Of a DNA stretch of 64,000 nucleotides, positions 13,201 through 28,544 are shown in pieces. Origin of the DNA: Clostridiales bacterium (lineage in GTDB: Bacteria > Bacillota > Clostridia > Saccharofermentanales > Saccharofermentanaceae); assembly GCA_017620475.1 (NCBI GenBank), contig JAFZQI010000004.1, forward strand, positions 1 to 64,000. The letters are read 5' to 3'. The position numbers and the translations under genes are program-made. Each line of letters starts with the position of its first letter. The stretch's first letter is position 1. Below the pieces are notes generated by a model that saw nothing but the letters and a program-made list of their open reading frames with translations, had not been told where the DNA came from and made no database searches.

Positions 13201-15408
13201 ATGACAGAAGAAAAGACGCAAAAGAAAACGAACACCTGTCGTTTTGGCCGCTGGATCAAGGTTCTTTCCTGCACTCTGGTTATTGCGTTCCTTGGAACGC
13301 AGGGGATTGCGGCGATTCCTTTTGAGTCAGCAAGCAGCCACCTCGCTCATGACAGCGGATCGGGGCTGAACTTGGACAATCCGATGAATTATGCATTGTT
13401 CTGCTTTGACTATGCATCGTTCGGAAGCCAGGAAGGCGCACATACTTCAGGTGCATTGGCTGTTGCAGGTAATGCTGATTTCAGTACATTCTCTTTCTCA
13501 GGAAGTAACGCCGGAAGCAATGGTCTTCCTCAGCTCGTTGTTGGCGGAACTCTTTCGTTCCAGAATCTGAATAACCTCAATGGTAATATCATGGTTCCCT
13601 CTATTTCGAACCTTCAGGGCGGCAACTACAGTTTCGATAACTCCTACGGTATCGTAGAGGGTGTGACTGTTGACTTTGGTGCCGTTCGTGACAAGATGGT
13701 TGCTCGTGCGAACAGCGCGAATTACTATGCACAGAATTCTGCCAATGCTGATACTGTTGTCAGCGGCGGTGGCGGATGGAAAGTAGTTGAAGCCGTTCCG
13801 AAGGCCGGTTTTGATTCTTCCAGCAGCGTAATGATCTTTAATCTTCCTTCCGGTACGAGCCAGCTTATTGTTCCGGCTTATACAGATGTCATCATCAACG
13901 TTCAGGGATCTGAGATCAACGAACTCCCGCAGCTTCAGTATAAGGATGGTGGAAGCGTCTCCACTCCGAACGGCGGTGGCGATGATCGTGATGCATACGT
14001 TGTTTGGAACTGCGCAGAAGCAACGAAGGTTACTCTGACAAATACTTCCTTACACGGTGCGTTGCTTGCTCCGAATGCTCATGTAGAAAAGAAGAGCGGT
14101 AACTCCAATGGTGCGATCATCTGTAACTCGATCTTCAGCACATCGGAATTCCATAATGTTCCGAATCGCGTGAAGTTTAGATTCAATACTCCTACACCGA
14201 CACCTACGGAAACACCTACACCTACGCCGACAGATACGCCGACGCCGACTCCTACTGATACACCTACACCTACACCGACGGATACACCTACGCCGACGGC
14301 TACTCCGACAGCTACTCCGACGCCTACGGATACACCGACACCTACGGCAACTCCGACGGCCACACCTACACCGACGGATACGCCGACTCCTACGAATACA
14401 CCTACACCTACGGATACGCCTACACCGACTCCGACGGATACGCCGACACCTACGCCGACGAACACTCCGACTCCGAAGCCGACTGAGACACCGGTTCCGA
14501 CGAATACACCGATTCCGACGGCAACGCCGATTCCGAGCGCGACACCGTCGCCGACGCCGACAGATACACCTACACCGACGGCTACACCTACGGATACGCC
14601 GACTCCGACACCTACGGATACGCCGACTCCGACGCCTACGGATACACCTACACCGACGGCTACACCTACTGACACGCCGACACCGACTCCGACGGATACG
14701 CCTACACCGACACCGACGGATACACCGACGCCGACACCAACGGATACGCCGACACCGACAGAGACTCCGACGGCAACACCTACTGACACGCCGACGCCGA
14801 CTCCGACGGAGACACCTACGCCGACACCGCTGCCGACAAATACTCCGATTCCGACAGCGACGCCGATCCCGACGGTAACACCATTGCCGAGCGAGACACC
14901 GACACCTACGGAGACACCTACGCCGACTCCGACGGAGACGCCGACACCTACGCCGACAGATACTCCGACTCCGACGCCGACAGAAACTCCGACACCTACA
15001 CCGGTTGTCAAGTTGAACTATACGCCGACACCTACGCCGACGAATACTCCGACTCCGACACCGCTGCCGACCGCAACGCCGATTCCGACTGCAACTCCTG
15101 TTCCGACGGCAACACCGGTTCCGGTTGATAAGAAGACGGTGAATAAGATCACACCGACGGAGACTCCGGTTCCGACAGAGACTCCGGTGCCGACCGAGAC
15201 GCCGACACCTACACCGACTGAGACTCCGGCTCCTACGGAGACTCCGGTTCCGAAGCCGACATCTGATGTACTCGGAGCAACACGTGTACCGAAGACCGGT
15301 GATACGGGATCCTCTATCAAGCTTCTTGCGGGTCTGTTCTTCCTGGTAGCATCCGCAACAACAGTTACAGTAGTAGCGAAGAAGAAGGAAGAGGAAGACG
15401 AACAATAA
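13201..15408 (+). CDS. Cell-wall-anchored choice-of-anchor A protein with Thr-Pro repeat stalk
   Basis: A 735-residue surface protein. A signal peptide with a hydrophobic stretch lies near residues 18-38 ([20 protein letters not shown]). Residues about 60-325 match the choice-of-anchor A type domain ([13 protein letters not shown]...TSGALAVAG), predicted beta-rich and exported. Residues about 330-687 are an extended stalk of T-P dipeptides with Asp, Glu, Asn, Ala inserts. The C-terminus has VPKTGD, a hydrophobic helix and a KKKEEEDEQ tail, which is a sortase sorting signal of the LPXTG class. No sortase gene is present here. The N-terminal domain may bind a ligand at the cell surface; none can be named. 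Confidence 0.85.
14188..15261 (+). repeat. Thr-Pro-coding minisatellite-like repeat
   Basis: About 1.07 kb of degenerate tandem units built on ACNCCNACN triplets, coding [13 protein letters not shown]-like peptide. Two different short interruptions (around 14497-14550 with Ile/Val-Pro, and around 15010-15150 with a KLNY and a VDKKTVNKI insert) divide it into blocks. Third codon positions vary, which suggests selection on protein rather than recent duplication. Length variation between strains is likely. Confidence 0.85.
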
Positions 15409-21699: not shown

Positions 21700-22482
21700 A
21701 TGAAAATATGTGCACTATCAGAGAATACAAGCCTTTGTGGTCTTCCGACTGAACATGGTTTGAGCCTCTACATTGAGACGGACAAACACAAGATCCTCTT
21801 TGATTTCGGACAAAGCCCGCTTTTTTATCAGAATGCGAAGGTGATGGGCGTTGATCTCGGCAAAGTGGATATAGCATTTCTTTCTCACGGGCATTATGAT
21901 CATGGCGGAGGTCTCGCAACGTTTCTGGATGTGAACCGGATTGCAAACGTGTATATGCATGAACTGGCCTTTGAACCGCATTATAACGGACGTAACGAGT
22001 ATATCGGCCTGGATCCGACTATGGACGGACACCCCCGATTCATCAAAGTGCGCGAGAATGTCCGGATCGACGATGAACTGTCCTTTGTGACCATGGATAA
22101 TCTCAAGACTCACATAGATACAAGCGGTCTTCGTGTAAAGCGCGGGAAATATTTGGAAAGCGAGAAGTTCGAACATGAGATGTATCTTCAGATCCGTGAA
22201 GGGTATAAGACCTATCTCATCAGCGGATGCTCTCACAAAGGATTGATCAATCTTATCTACGCTTTTAGATTTGATGCATTTGTCGGCGGATTTCATTTCA
22301 TGAAGTACGATGTTCTCTGGGATGAGGACAAGCTTCTCGATGCCGCCCAGGCGATAAAAAACTCCTGTGCCGATTACTACACCTGTCACTGCACCGGATC
22401 CGAACCCTACCAATTCCTTAAAGACGAGATCGGGGCAAAGATGCACTACATATCGGCAGGAGAGACAATCACCATAGACTGA
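21700..22482 (+). CDS. Metallo-beta-lactamase-fold hydrolase
   Basis: A 260-residue MBL-fold protein. The metal motif LSHGHYDHGGG (His63, His65, Asp67, His68) is complete and further His residues (YLISGCSHKGLIN, THIDT) supply the second metal ligands. The N-terminus resembles the group of small 7,8-dihydropterin-synthase-like MBL hydrolases; the substrate is unknown. ATG at 21700 gives the family start and has only a weak GAGG. A much better GGAGG at 21616-21620 is followed by an in-frame open stretch with no normal start codon (see findings). Confidence 0.82.
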   Translation: MKICALSENTSLCGLPTEHGLSLYIETDKHKILFDFGQSPLFYQNAKVMGVDLGKVDIAFLSHGHYDHGGGLATFLDVNRIANVYMHELAFEPHYNGRNEYIGLDPTMDGHPRFIKVRENVRIDDELSFVTMDNLKTHIDTSGLRVKRGKYLESEKFEHEMYLQIREGYKTYLISGCSHKGLINLIYAFRFDAFVGGFHFMKYDVLWDEDKLLDAAQAIKNSCADYYTCHCTGSEPYQFLKDEIGAKMHYISAGETITID

Positions 22483-22615: not shown

Positions 22616-22643
22616 TTGAATCTTTCTTTTTCTCTGATATTAT
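22616..22643 (+). promoter_or_regulatory. Putative promoter and leader hairpin of the symporter
   Basis: TTGAAT at 22616-22621 and TATTAT at 22638-22643 with a 16-base spacer. The leader then holds a perfect short hairpin, GCCCCG-ATTT-CGGGGC (22661-22676), before the ATG at 22731. Confidence 0.5.
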
Positions 22644-22730
22644 AAGAACGTAGTTTTTATGCCCCGATTTCGGGGCGAAAGTAAATTGTAGGGCTGTCAT
22701 TTCTTATCGGCAGCAGAAGGATGGTAGAAT

Positions 22731-24344
22731 ATGGATTCTCTCGACTTATTGTACGGGATAGTCATTGTCGTGTTCTTCGCAATGATTATCGGGGTAGGTG
22801 TGTACTCAAGAAAAAACACCAAAGACGTGTCTTCTTTTGTACTCGGTGGCAGAAGGGTTGGCCCGTGGCTTACGGCGTTCTCCTTCGGTGCAACGTATTT
22901 TTCCGCAGTTATCTTTATCGGTTATGCAGGTAAGTTCGGATGGGACTTCGGTGTTTCGGCGCTGTGGATCGGTCTGGGCAATGCTTTTATCGGTTCTCTT
23001 GCGGCCTGAGTGGTCCTCGGCAAGAGATGCCGTATCATGACCAAAACTCTGAATACAAACACGATGCCGGACTTTTTCGGTAAGCGTTATAATTCCAAGT
23101 CTCTTCGTATCGCGGCGGCGCTGATCATCTTCATCTTCATGATCCCGTACTCCGCTTCGGTATTCAATGGACTGTCTTATCTTTTCACATCCGCTCTTCG
23201 TCTGGACCGTATTACAAACGGCTACGAGATCTGTATTGTTGTTATGAGCCTTCTTGCGGCCACATACGTAATTCTTGGCGGATATATGTCTACAGCAATC
23301 AACGATTTCATCCAGGGTATGATCATGATCGTCGGTATCGTGATGACGATCGTATGTGTATTGAATTATCATGGCGGCCTGATGGATTCCATGACGGAAC
23401 TGTCCATGATTCCGGCAGCTAACGGATCTGCTTTCCAGGGCGTCTATTCCTCGCTCTTCGGACCTGAGCCGCTGAACCTCCTCGGTGTTGTCATTCTTAC
23501 CTCTCTTGGCACATGGGGCTTGCCGCAGATGGTTCAGAAGTTCTATTCTATCAAGGATGATAAGTCCGTACATACTGCAACAGTTATTTCGACGATCTTT
23601 GCCGTCATCATTGCCGGCGGTTCCTATTTCATGGGTGGCTTTGCCCGTATTTTCGTTGGCGCTGAAGATATCAAGACGGCTTCCGGGTCTCTTAACATGG
23701 ACAAGATCATGCCGATCATTCTCGATAAAGCGATTCCGACGCTTCTGGTTGCGATCCTGGTAGTTCTGGTTCTGTCAGCTTCGATGTCTACGCTGACATC
23801 TCTGGTCCTGACTTCCAGTTCCACGATTACACTGGATGTAATTTCCGATAACGTTATTAAAGATATGGATGAGAAGAAGAAGGTGAGAATCATTCGTCTG
23901 CTTCTTGCATTCTTCGTTCTGGTTTCTATGGCTCTGGCCATCTACTCTTACCGCAGCAATGATATGTACATCACCAAGCTGATGTCTATCTCCTGGGGCG
24001 CTATGGCCGGTTCTTTCCTGGCTCCGTTCTTCTATGGATTGTTCTGGAAGGGTGTCACAAAGGCAGCTGTATGGGCTTCCTTTATCAGCGGTGTGGGCAT
24101 TACCGTCTCCCACCTGATCCTCAGTAACGGTGCGCTCTTCGGACATAGCTTCAAGTTCCCGACAGGACTTCCGATCAATCTGGCTTCCCCAATCAATGCA
24201 GGTGCTTTTGCCATGTTATTCGGACTTGTGATCGTACCGGTTGTTTCCTGGATCACTCCGAAGCCGGACAAGAAAGTGATCGATGCGGCATTCAAAGATA
24301 TGCCGGCAGACATCCCTGCGAGAATTGATGATATTAAAGCGTAA
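22731..24344 (+). pseudogene. Sodium:solute symporter (SSS family) interrupted by one in-frame TGA
   Basis: Read through a single TGA at 23007-23009, the frame encodes a 537-codon sodium:solute symporter of normal length. The N-terminus carries the family pattern (GVGVYSRKNTKDVSSFVLGG, then GPWLTAFSFGATYFSA). The TGA falls in SLAA-stop-VVLGKRCR, where relatives have a tryptophan before the V/L-GKR motif, so a TGG-to-TGA change explains it. Downstream the rest is intact with multiple hydrophobic helices and the conserved VLVLSASMSTL region. No ribosome binding site supports a restart at GTG 23010. It may be a real nonsense mutation, a sequencing error, or readthrough. Substrate unknown. Confidence 0.75.
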
Positions 24345-24410: not shown

Positions 24411-26180
24411 GTGAAACAGATTATGTTAGGTAACGAAGCTGTAGCACGTGGCGCCTACGAAGCAGGAGTGAAGGTCGTTTCCTCCTATCCGGGCACCCCG
24501 AGTACAGAGATCACGGAAACGATTGCAACGTACGATCGTATCTATTGTGAGTGGGCAACCAATGAAAAAGTTGCTTCCGAGGTAGCCATCGGTGCTTCCA
24601 TCCGCGGAGCCCGTGCGATGACATGTATGAAGCATGTTGGAATGAATGTGGCTGCTGACCCGATGTTTACAGCCGCTTATGAGGGAGTTAATGGCGGTCT
24701 TGTGTTCGTGGTTGCCGATGATCCGGGTATGCACAGTTCCCAGGATGAGCAGGACAGCCGTAATTACGGCCGTGCTGCGAAACTCATGATCCTCGAGCCT
24801 TCCGACAGCCAGGAGTGCAAGGATTTTGCCAAGAAGGCATTCGAGCTCTCCGAGCGTTTCGACACACCGGTGATCCTTCGTATGCACACCCGTGTATCCC
24901 ACTCCCGTTCTATTGTTGAACTCTCTGATCCGGAAGACATCGTCGTCAAGCCGTATGAGAAGAACGTCAACAAATACGTCATGATGCCGGCTATGGCCAT
25001 CAAGCGTCATGTCGTTGTTGAGCAGAGAACGCTGGATATCGCCAAGGCTTCTAATGAAGAGTTCCTCGGTATGGGTATTCATAAGATCGAAATGAACGAC
25101 ACCAAGCTCGGCATCATTACGGCCGGTGCTTCCTTCCAGTATGTAAAAGAAGGCGTTCCGACCGCTTCCGTCCTCAAGCTTGGCTGCGTATGGCCGTTGC
25201 CGATGGATCTGATCCGCGATTTCGCCTCTAAGGTAGATCGTCTGGTCGTTGTTGAAGAACTTGATCCGTTTATGGAAACCGAGATCAAGGCCGCCGGCAT
25301 CGCCTGTGAAGGAAAGGCTCTGTTCACGCTGCAGGGCGAGTATAACGCCAGAATGATCCGTTCCGTGCTTTCTTCGGATGCTCTTCCGGAAAAAGCACTG
25401 GACCTCGACAAGCTTCCGAAGGCTCCGGGCCGTCCGCCGCTTCTCTGCGCAGGCTGTCCGCATAAGGGCATGTTCCTTGCTTTGAATCGTGCTAAGGTAC
25501 AGGTCATGGGCGATATCGGATGCTATACACTGGGTACGCTTCCGCCGACAGCCGCGATGGATGTTTCTGTCTGCATGGGTGCTTCAGTTGGTATGGCGCA
25601 TGGCTTCGATAAGGCCAGTGACGGTGAAGACAGCAAGAAGACAGTTGCCGTTATCGGTGACTCCACATTCCTGCACTCCGGTATCACGAACCTGATCAAC
25701 GCTGTATATAACCAGAGTGCGATCACGGTCATGATCCTCGATAACTCTATCACGGGCATGACAGGACATCAGCAGAACCCTGCTTCCGGTAAGAATATCC
25801 GTTTGCAGCCGGCTCCGGCCATCGACCTTGAGACACTCTGCAGAAGCGTAGGTGTAACTTCGGTAAGAACCGTCGATCCGGTAGATACATATGAAGTGGA
25901 GAAAATCGTTAAGGAAGAAATCGCCAAGGATTGCGTATCAGTCATCATCGTACGCCGTCCGTGCGCGCTGATCCCGACAGGCAAGAAGCCGAAGGGTGTT
26001 TCGATCGTACTGAACGAAGAGAACTGCAAGAAGTGTGGCGCCTGCTCCCGCATCATGTGTCCGGCTCTCGTAGCCGGTGAGGATAAGAAACCGGTGATCG
26101 ATCCTGAGGCTTGCAATACCTGTGGCCTTTGTATCAATATGTGTAAATTCAATGCTCTGAGCAAGAAAGAGGAGGCGTAA
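24411..26180 (+). CDS. iorA: Indolepyruvate ferredoxin oxidoreductase, alpha subunit
   Basis: A 589-residue fused subunit that decarboxylates aryl pyruvates to aryl-acetyl-CoA with reduction of ferredoxin. The N-terminus has GNEAVARGAYEAGVKVVSSY then PGTPSTEI, the TPP part shows IGDSTFLHSGI and DNSITGMTGHQ, and the C-terminus holds two 4Fe-4S motifs (CKKCGACSRIMCP and CNTCGLCINMC). The start codon is GTG at 24411 after a weak GAGG. iorB follows one base later. Its company with IlvE and a second oxoacid oxidoreductase in the window suggests amino-acid oxidation or synthesis by reverse carboxylation. Confidence 0.95.
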   Translation: MKQIMLGNEAVARGAYEAGVKVVSSYPGTPSTEITETIATYDRIYCEWATNEKVASEVAIGASIRGARAMTCMKHVGMNVAADPMFTAAYEGVNGGLVFVVADDPGMHSSQDEQDSRNYGRAAKLMILEPSDSQECKDFAKKAFELSERFDTPVILRMHTRVSHSRSIVELSDPEDIVVKPYEKNVNKYVMMPAMAIKRHVVVEQRTLDIAKASNEEFLGMGIHKIEMNDTKLGIITAGASFQYVKEGVPTASVLKLGCVWPLPMDLIRDFASKVDRLVVVEELDPFMETEIKAAGIACEGKALFTLQGEYNARMIRSVLSSDALPEKALDLDKLPKAPGRPPLLCAGCPHKGMFLALNRAKVQVMGDIGCYTLGTLPPTAAMDVSVCMGASVGMAHGFDKASDGEDSKKTVAVIGDSTFLHSGITNLINAVYNQSAITVMILDNSITGMTGHQQNPASGKNIRLQPAPAIDLETLCRSVGVTSVRTVDPVDTYEVEKIVKEEIAKDCVSVIIVRRPCALIPTGKKPKGVSIVLNEENCKKCGACSRIMCPALVAGEDKKPVIDPEACNTCGLCINMCKFNALSKKEEA

Positions 26181-26181
26181 T

Positions 26182-26778
26182 ATGGCTAAGGATATTTCAA
26201 TTGTACTCGCCGGCGTCGGCGGACAGGGAACCTTGATTGCCGGAAAACTCCTCGGCATCCTTGCGATGAAACAGGGCTTGGATATCAAGGTTTCCGAGGT
26301 GCACGGTATGAGCCAGCGCGGAGGTTCCGTAATCACATATGTAAGAATGGGAGAGAAAGTCTACTCTCCGATCATCGAAGAAGGCATGGCTGATTATGTG
26401 CTTGCTTTTGAAGAGGTAGAGGCTGTACGTTGGGCAAACCTCCTGAAAAAGGATGGTGTGCTCCTTGTAAACTCCCAGAAGATCAAAAGTCTTCCGGTCC
26501 TTCTCGGAAATGCCGAGTACCCGGAGAATATCAAGGCTTCTCTGGATGCATCTGCTTCCGGAAATGCGAAAGTCGTCGAATTCGATGCTCTTTCCGCTGC
26601 CCTCTCCTGCGGCAGCAGCAAAGCCGTCAATATGGTCATGGTCGGTGCCCTTTCTGCCGGTATGGATTTCCCGAAGGAATTGTGGGAGGAAGCGATCGAC
26701 GAAGCTTTCGCCAGCAAGGCAAAACTTATTCCTATGAATATTGAAGCTTTTAACAAAGGAAGAGATTTTGTTTCATAA
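26182..26778 (+). CDS. iorB: Indolepyruvate ferredoxin oxidoreductase, beta subunit
   Basis: A 198-residue beta subunit of the expected length. GVGGQGTLIAGKLLG lies near residues 12-26 and SEVHGMSQRGGSV follows, both family hallmarks. It begins one base after the iorA stop, so the two are a translational pair. A phenylacetate-CoA ligase gene often next to iorAB is absent; an ACT-domain gene takes that place after 54 bases. Confidence 0.95.
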   Translation: MAKDISIVLAGVGGQGTLIAGKLLGILAMKQGLDIKVSEVHGMSQRGGSVITYVRMGEKVYSPIIEEGMADYVLAFEEVEAVRWANLLKKDGVLLVNSQKIKSLPVLLGNAEYPENIKASLDASASGNAKVVEFDALSAALSCGSSKAVNMVMVGALSAGMDFPKELWEEAIDEAFASKAKLIPMNIEAFNKGRDFVS

Positions 26779-26832: not shown

Positions 26833-27264
26833 ATGTTAGTTAAGCAGATCAATGTTTTCCTTGAGAATTCTTTCGGCCGTCTTGCCGAGGTGACCAAAAC
26901 CCTTGGAAAGGCCAACATCGACATCCGTGCGCTGTATGTTGCGGATTCCTCCGATTATGGCGTCCTTCGCATGATCCTTGATAAGCCGGAGGAAGCCGTT
27001 CAGGTTTTGACCGATGCCGGATTTACGGTAAGTATGTCGCCGGTCCTTGCTATTGCGATTCCGGATCAGCCGGGTACGCTGGATCAGGCGCTGACGAAGT
27101 TCTCGGAGACCGGTGAGTCAATGGAATACATCTATGGCTTTGTCGGACGCAAGTCTTCTGAAGCGGTGATGGTGATCCGGGTCCAGAATTTTGATCCGGT
27201 CGTTAAGAAGTTTGAGGAAGCCGGAATCAGGATCTTAAAGCCTGAGGAGGTATACGGTATCTGA
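26833..27264 (+). CDS. Tandem ACT-domain protein
   Basis: A 143-residue protein made of two ACT domains (about 1-66 and 70-140), each with the beta-alpha-beta pattern (VFLENSFGRLAEVTKTL and IAIPDQPGTLDQALTKF). ACT domains bind amino acids and control enzymes or regulators. No catalytic domain is attached. Proteins of this type frequently sit beside iorAB, and an aromatic or branched amino acid is a plausible ligand. GGAGG precedes the ATG. Its stop shares one base with the next start. Confidence 0.88.
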   Translation: MLVKQINVFLENSFGRLAEVTKTLGKANIDIRALYVADSSDYGVLRMILDKPEEAVQVLTDAGFTVSMSPVLAIAIPDQPGTLDQALTKFSETGESMEYIYGFVGRKSSEAVMVIRVQNFDPVVKKFEEAGIRILKPEEVYGI

Positions 27265-28544
27265 TGAAAGACAATCCGTTTGCAAAATACGGAATCAGTG
27301 ATGCGGTGGTTGAGATGGCTTCTGAAGCGATGACCACCGTTTCATCTGTATTTCGGAAAATCGATGAAACCAGAGAAATCAACCAGTTGCGTGTATTGGA
27401 CGCATTTCGTAACGCGAGGTTCGCCGAAGCTCATTTGGGCGCAACCACAGGGTATGGTTATGATGACATCGGAAGAGAGAAGATCGAGGAGATGTATGCC
27501 GAGCTCTTTGGAGCGGAGGCGGCCTATGTACGTATCCAGGTTGCTTGCGGTACACAGATCCTGGTAGCATGCCTCTTCGGTATTCTTAAACCGGGTGAGG
27601 AGATGCTGGCCGTGACCGGCCGTCCTTATGATACGCTGGCTTCTGCGCTGGGCGTGGAGAAGAAGGAGGATACATTCACCGGATCGCTTCTTGACTATGG
27701 CATGAAGTACAATGAGGTTCAGCTTCTTGAAGACGGTTCTCCGGATCTTCTGTTGATCCGTAATGCCATTAAGCCGGAAACCAAGGTGGTTTTCCTTCAG
27801 AAATCCAAGGGCTATACCTCCAGAAGATGTCTTCGTTCCGAGGATATCAAAGCCGTGGTAGATCTGGTAAAGGGAATACGGGATGACATTATCGTATTTG
27901 TAGACAACTGTTACGGGGAATTTGTGGAGACTTCAGAGCCGTGTGCGCTGGGAGCAGATCTTTGTGCGGGATCGCTTATTAAGAACGCCGGAGGCGGAAT
28001 TTGTCCTTCAGGAGCATATGTCTGCGGACGTAAAGATCTTGTTGAGCGTGTAGCGGAAAGAGTGACGGCGCCGGGATTGGGAAGTCATGTGGGACCAAGT
28101 CTCGGATTTAACCGGCAGATCGCCCAGGGTCTTTTTATGGCACCTCACGTTGTTGCGGAAGCGCTGAAGGGCGCGGTGTTTGCGTCAAAATTGCTGGAGA
28201 TGGCGGGCTGCCATTGCGAACCCGCTTTTGATGAACCTCGTGGCGATATCGTGCAAAGTGTGGCTTTTCCAAATGCGGAACAAATGGTACACTTTTGTAA
28301 ACAAGTGCAGAACTGTTCGCCTGTCGACTCTTTTGTCTCGCCGGAACCGTGGGATATGCCCGGATACGACGCTCAGGTCGTTATGGCGGCAGGTGCTTTT
28401 GTACAGGGATCATCGATCGAATTCTCGGCTGATGGCCCCGTGAAACCGCCTTATCTTGTTTATATGCAGGGCGGTTTGGTATTTGAACAGGTGAAGCTGG
28501 CAGTCATGATGGCGGTCAGCGGCATGATCGAGAACAGGGGATAA
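27264..28544 (+). CDS. Methionine gamma-lyase family PLP enzyme (former aluminium-resistance protein)
   Basis: A 426-residue PLP-dependent fold-type I protein of COG4100 type. Visible hallmarks are HLGATTGYGYDDIGR near residue 57, the VQ/ACGTQIL region, and SLIKNAGGG, where the Lys is the probable PLP anchor. The family has been linked to methionine gamma-lyase-like chemistry and historically to aluminium resistance, but its substrate is poorly known. It is in a run with the ACT gene (one-base overlap) and the HlyD-like gene (one-base gap). Confidence 0.85.
   Translation: MKDNPFAKYGISDAVVEMASEAMTTVSSVFRKIDETREINQLRVLDAFRNARFAEAHLGATTGYGYDDIGREKIEEMYAELFGAEAAYVRIQVACGTQILVACLFGILKPGEEMLAVTGRPYDTLASALGVEKKEDTFTGSLLDYGMKYNEVQLLEDGSPDLLLIRNAIKPETKVVFLQKSKGYTSRRCLRSEDIKAVVDLVKGIRDDIIVFVDNCYGEFVETSEPCALGADLCAGSLIKNAGGGICPSGAYVCGRKDLVERVAERVTAPGLGSHVGPSLGFNRQIAQGLFMAPHVVAEALKGAVFASKLLEMAGCHCEPAFDEPRGDIVQSVAFPNAEQMVHFCKQVQNCSPVDSFVSPEPWDMPGYDAQVVMAAGAFVQGSSIEFSADGPVKPPYLVYMQGGLVFEQVKLAVMMAVSGMIENRG

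Follow-up and report, generated by a model that had tools for sequence, protein, structure and literature searches.

Does the TGA inside the sodium:solute symporter gene of this Clostridiales genome reflect an unusual reading of the codon, a gene that was broken recently, or a fault in the assembled sequence? The window considered here, i.e., the whole stretch of DNA analysed, comprises the first 64,000 of the 120,224 bases of contig C40, which belongs to a draft genome that totals 2.68 Mb, is spread over 50 contigs and is 81.6% complete. Its near relatives are mainly metagenome-assembled genomes of rumen and other gut Clostridiales. Translation confirmed what an earlier note on this DNA had reported—a single TGA, at codon 93, as the sole in-frame stop of a 537-codon frame with no second lesion (Table 1). 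The read-through product matches the SSF family (PF00474) over residues 36-450 with an E-value of 6.7e-53 and 180.5 bits, compared with a gathering threshold of 22.8, and the gene is single-copy in the genome at ortholog-level identity. Although this core is that of the SSF family, and PutP and PanF were among the best NCBIfam models, the protein fell below the curated cut-off of every NCBIfam model listed, these two included (best model, TIGR02121, 187.8 bits versus a cut-off of 515.5), and no named substrate subfamily was assigned.

Table 1. Features of the symporter locus, with the single comparable stop found in a relative. Positions are those of the window unless a genome is named.
Feature	Position	Strand	Remarks
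Metallo-beta-lactamase-fold protein, upstream of the symporter	21700..22482	+	PF00753; conserved neighbour
Promoter-like TTGAAT-16-TATTAT	22616..22643	+	Match to the consensus only (0.6 such matches expected in shuffles); aligned in the leaders of relatives
Conserved leader motif GTAGGG-hairpin-AGAAGGATGGTAG	22688..22727	+	Directly before the start codon, intact; no Rfam match
Sodium:solute symporter (SSF) gene	22731..24344	+	537 codons with codon 93 read through; PF00474 match
Predicted translated part if the TGA terminates	22731..23009	+	92 residues
In-frame TGA, codon 93	23007..23009	+	TGG in all aligned orthologues
Open remainder 3' of the stop	23010..24344	+	444-codon ORF, GTG start directly after the TGA; purifying constraint
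Short stem CGGCA/TGCCG	23018..23032 (arms 23018-23022 / 23028-23032)	+	Judged incidental
TPP/ferredoxin oxidoreductase alpha subunit (iorA-like), downstream	24411..26180	+	PF02775, PF01855; conserved neighbour
Oxidoreductase gamma-domain subunit (iorB-like)	26182..26778	+	PF01558; conserved neighbour
ACT-domain pair protein	26833..27264	+	PF19571; conserved neighbour
Methionine gamma-lyase family protein	27264..28544	+	PF06838; the G012 orthologue has its own lone TGA
Lone in-frame TGA in G012	G012:C18 near 106717; L037 10092	-	Interior-stop survey of relatives

The relatives are uniform at this codon. Each of the other 22 genus genomes that were searched has a symporter orthologue, which in G015 is divided between two contigs. 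G015 and more distant matches were left out of the codon alignment, whose 28 orthologues (21 of the genus, seven of other genera in the family) all have TGG at the site. In a wider scan of 80 relatives, about 20 of which are genus genomes that the codon alignment also contains, tryptophan was found in all 79 that covered the site, with 58 below 80% identity. The comparison indicates that the tryptophan of codon 93 is strongly conserved, and TGA is one base away from TGG—so that the earlier note was right to state that relatives carry tryptophan here and that a single change separates the two codons, and the residue, aligned with SSF relatives as the note had proposed, proved invariant. Sharing of the TGA by close relatives, an outcome which the note had set against its own reading, occurred in none of the 28 aligned orthologues. 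Moreover, when 59 whole genomes were searched, 49 gave matches, and only the genome studied here had a stop inside a full-length orthologue. Two distant SSF paralogues (27% identity; G019:C9:110400-111947 and G011:C26:29002-30528) each have one TAA inside the match, which may be the natural stop taken in by the alignment. An exact 30-base match across the symporter stop was found nowhere in viral_contigs, a search of viral scope that is uninformative on bacteria.

This pattern bears on two rivals to a plain nonsense mutation. One is an error of sequencing or consensus calling, with G as the true base and the gene intact, which is favoured by the privacy of the stop to this genome. The other is functional readthrough, whereby a near-cognate tRNA-Trp would read the UGA and yield some full-length transporter, its dose lowered or regulated. 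Tryptophan is the usual near-cognate product at UGA, and a site that is tryptophan in all relatives would suit such a mechanism, but the occurrence of TGA in 0 of 28 aligned relatives speaks against it.

The rates of substitution tell how long the gene could have gone without selection. Against the nearest species, dN/dS was 0.0365 for the gene and 0.0370 for the part after the stop; against six genus relatives, the ranges were 0.037-0.052 and 0.037-0.053, respectively. As a control, the nearest intact species (L002) gave similar values, 0.031-0.047 against five others, and 0.033-0.056 after the same point. The changes private to this lineage amount to six synonymous and one non-synonymous, with the TGA codon excluded. 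Constraint is present on both sides of the stop, and such figures mean that the symporter has apparently spent little or no time under relaxed selection. The stop appears to be young, since dN/dS is low against the nearest species and remains so 3' of the stop. Such absence of decay would be expected equally of a mutation of very recent origin, of an error and of a gene that still functions: the lack of relaxed selection adds to the case for an error, and the constraint that persists 3' of the stop adds to that for readthrough.

Whether TGA could be decoded here at all was approached through its general use in the genome. Among 154 long frames in 218.8 kb, TGA ends 68, TAA 67 and TAG 11, and eight run off the end; TGA thus terminates 68 of the 146 frames that have a stop. 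RF2 scores over its curated cut-off, and the tRNA-Trp is canonical: its anticodon is CCA, the anticodon stem has its full 5 bp, and by the usual numbering position 24 is a G. The exclusion of genome-wide recoding in the earlier note is therefore upheld, and recoding was rejected on the ordinary use of TGA as a stop and the presence of RF2. Reassignment of TGA, be it genome-wide or in the lineage, has nothing in its favour among our findings; the termination count and RF2 refute it, the symporter TGA is the only clear interior TGA among 46 gene places in the window, and we regard its probability as negligible. A suppressor tRNA likewise found no support: a UCA anticodon was absent from the 44 of 45 tRNA matches in the draft genome that ARAGORN read (the 45th is cut by a contig end), and the tRNA-Trp is canonical.

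Selenocysteine insertion at the symporter UGA would draw some encouragement from the stem lying just 3' of the codon. However, the residue of the relatives is tryptophan, not cysteine, and selA had no match in this genome or in any of the 15 genus relatives searched, with selB and tRNA-Sec under the cut-off in all 16. Two order-level relatives (G035 and G041) scored over the cut-off for selA, selB and tRNA-Sec, so these searches can detect the selenocysteine machinery. As far as a draft of this completeness—the scope of all decoding-machinery searches—allows, selenocysteine insertion is refuted, and it strikes us as exceedingly improbable.

The stem itself received separate attention. Its stability was reached by only 1 of 200 dinucleotide shuffles (z = -2.39), and by 164 of 2000 synonymous redraws that preserve the protein. 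In addition, the same or a near-identical stem was seen by eye in 11 of 21 genus relatives, all of which have TGG. We judge that the hairpin is probably best explained by the coding sequence and probably not linked to the TGA; as a readthrough signal it was set aside as unlikely, given the TGG relatives that have the stem and the redraws that reach its stability. The hairpin, which the earlier note thought might be due to chance, exists as described there. Restart of translation at the GTG codon that immediately follows the TGA was likewise considered unlikely, for want of a Shine-Dalgarno sequence that was clear by eye and because a symporter product without its first 92 residues would lose the first helices of the fold.

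With these results, functional readthrough can be weighed. In the part of PMC13092985 available to us, UGA reading is tied to a 4-bp anticodon stem of tRNA-Trp or to the Hirsh G24A change. The symporter resembles that system in having a UGA at a tryptophan position; the tRNA-Trp(CCA) of this genome differs, with its canonical 5-bp stem and G24. The hairpin common to TGG relatives and the lack of a UCA anticodon among the 44 tRNA matches read tell against readthrough as well. On the other side, bacterial in-frame stops are described as widespread and with dN/dS below 1 by Belinky et al. (2021; PMC7918605, as far as the accessible text goes), though as mostly short-lived. On balance, we consider functional readthrough improbable. 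A more elaborate variant, in which the UGA would be a tolerated switch for dose or tryptophan supply—full-length transporter, from the gene at the head of an iorAB-like cluster with a possible role in handling aromatic amino acids, being made only with plentiful charged tRNA-Trp—is a good deal more doubtful still.

How often lone stops of this kind arise in such draft genomes was estimated by aligning the ORFs of relatives to the DNA. Across the 46 gene places that this gave in the window, nine stop positions were listed, of which the symporter TGA was the sole clear interior stop; the other eight fell, by eye, in unaligned or weakly aligned stretches near the start of an alignment. A further 134.8 kb of the genome (110 gene places) yielded 19 more positions and no other clear case: judged by eye and in a follow-up comparison, they fall in start regions, at ends, or in frames that run antisense to a longer ORF, with C37:50317-50539 as the exception. 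There, stops occur in a frame aligned at 60-69% to ORFs of relatives, possibly the start of a disrupted or divergent gene. The reverse survey covered 671 kb of relatives and 476 gene places, and disregarded stops lying no more than 20 residues from an end of the alignment. It listed eight stops, seven of which were shadow frames or divergent ends by eye and one of which was clearly interior, so that one clear case in 476 serves as a rough base rate of such lone stops for drafts from this group. This one lies in a sister species (G012), where the methionine gamma-lyase family gene, a member of the symporter's own cluster, has a lone TGA instead of a conserved glycine (183); it is the only stop among 120 copies of six cluster genes in 21 relatives. 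Since it stands at a glycine codon and in another species, it favours chance nonsense or error over a system specific to tryptophan.

The G012 case also lends weight to the error reading, as that genome is likewise a draft and its TGA likewise single and private. Against an error stand the 46 gene places of the window, in which nothing else hints at a noisy assembly, and the 134.8 kb surveyed beyond it, where no well-aligned gene shows a further clear interior stop (C37:50317-50539 set aside). An error at this base seems to us possible but unlikely, and distinctly more credible than any form of decoding. Among the options that the earlier note had left side by side, recent nonsense or error fits all findings, whereas readthrough has gained no positive support: the hairpin is common to TGG relatives, and neither selenocysteine machinery over the cut-off nor a suppressor tRNA was found.

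The account that we consider probable is a single recent nonsense substitution from TGG to TGA, confined to this genome or to whichever strain its consensus reflects. One G-to-A change would have turned TGG into TGA in the symporter gene that heads a conserved gene cluster. Since this organism uses TGA as an ordinary stop, the predicted product breaks off at residue 92, and the allele would not be expected to yield a working transporter. We infer that the base at 23009 is real and the product non-functional. The remainder of the frame still looks intact, and so do the promoter-like hexamers, the leader and the ribosome-binding region; as these last three are as in the relatives, no upstream decay was seen.

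The surroundings of the gene are equally well kept. The six-gene order of metallo-beta-lactamase-fold protein, symporter, iorA-like and iorB-like subunits (names that we presume to apply), ACT pair and methionine gamma-lyase recurs at 19 of 21 loci of relatives, and at the other two the contig stops after or within the iorA-like gene. Elsewhere in the window, a 735-codon ORF on the forward strand (13201-15408) with a long TPTPT/TPTDTPT repeat, a C-terminal hydrophobic stretch and a charged tail has the look of a surface-anchored protein.

The leader of the symporter gene deserves mention on its own account. Of 58 genomes, 23, which represent four genera of the family, contain a single match to a general pattern, GTAGNG-hairpin-AGRAGGATGGTAG, and each match (the window and loci L205-L227) lies just upstream of this symporter gene; variants outside the pattern are also present by eye. 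In 19 distinct sequences, pairing at the first four positions of the stem is preserved throughout (76 of 76 cells), a level reached by none of 2000 shuffles, and all four Watson-Crick types occur at pair 4. Rfam gave no match for the leader within the window. We propose this element as a candidate cis-regulatory leader, and its hairpin is possibly a better lead than the stop codon, from which it is separate.

As to the stop, the kind of event is already known, because PMC7918605 (to the extent of the text available) describes in-frame stops as widespread in bacteria and as mostly short-lived, with lifetimes of the order of population polymorphism. The symporter resembles the young nonsense pseudogenes and segregating stops of that work, with one stop, an intact frame and dN/dS well below 1, and would belong to the short-lived class. 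The filter used there calls for the same stop in two or more species, whereas that of the symporter was seen in one genome. The TGA has the appearance of a commonplace nonsense mutation of very recent date, or of a miscalled base, rather than of a new reading of the genetic code. It carries little weight beyond annotation: annotators should label the gene as an SSF transporter that has an internal stop and should not deduce any alternative decoding from it. If the stop is fixed in the species, this lineage would have lost the first gene of a cluster that its relatives keep intact.
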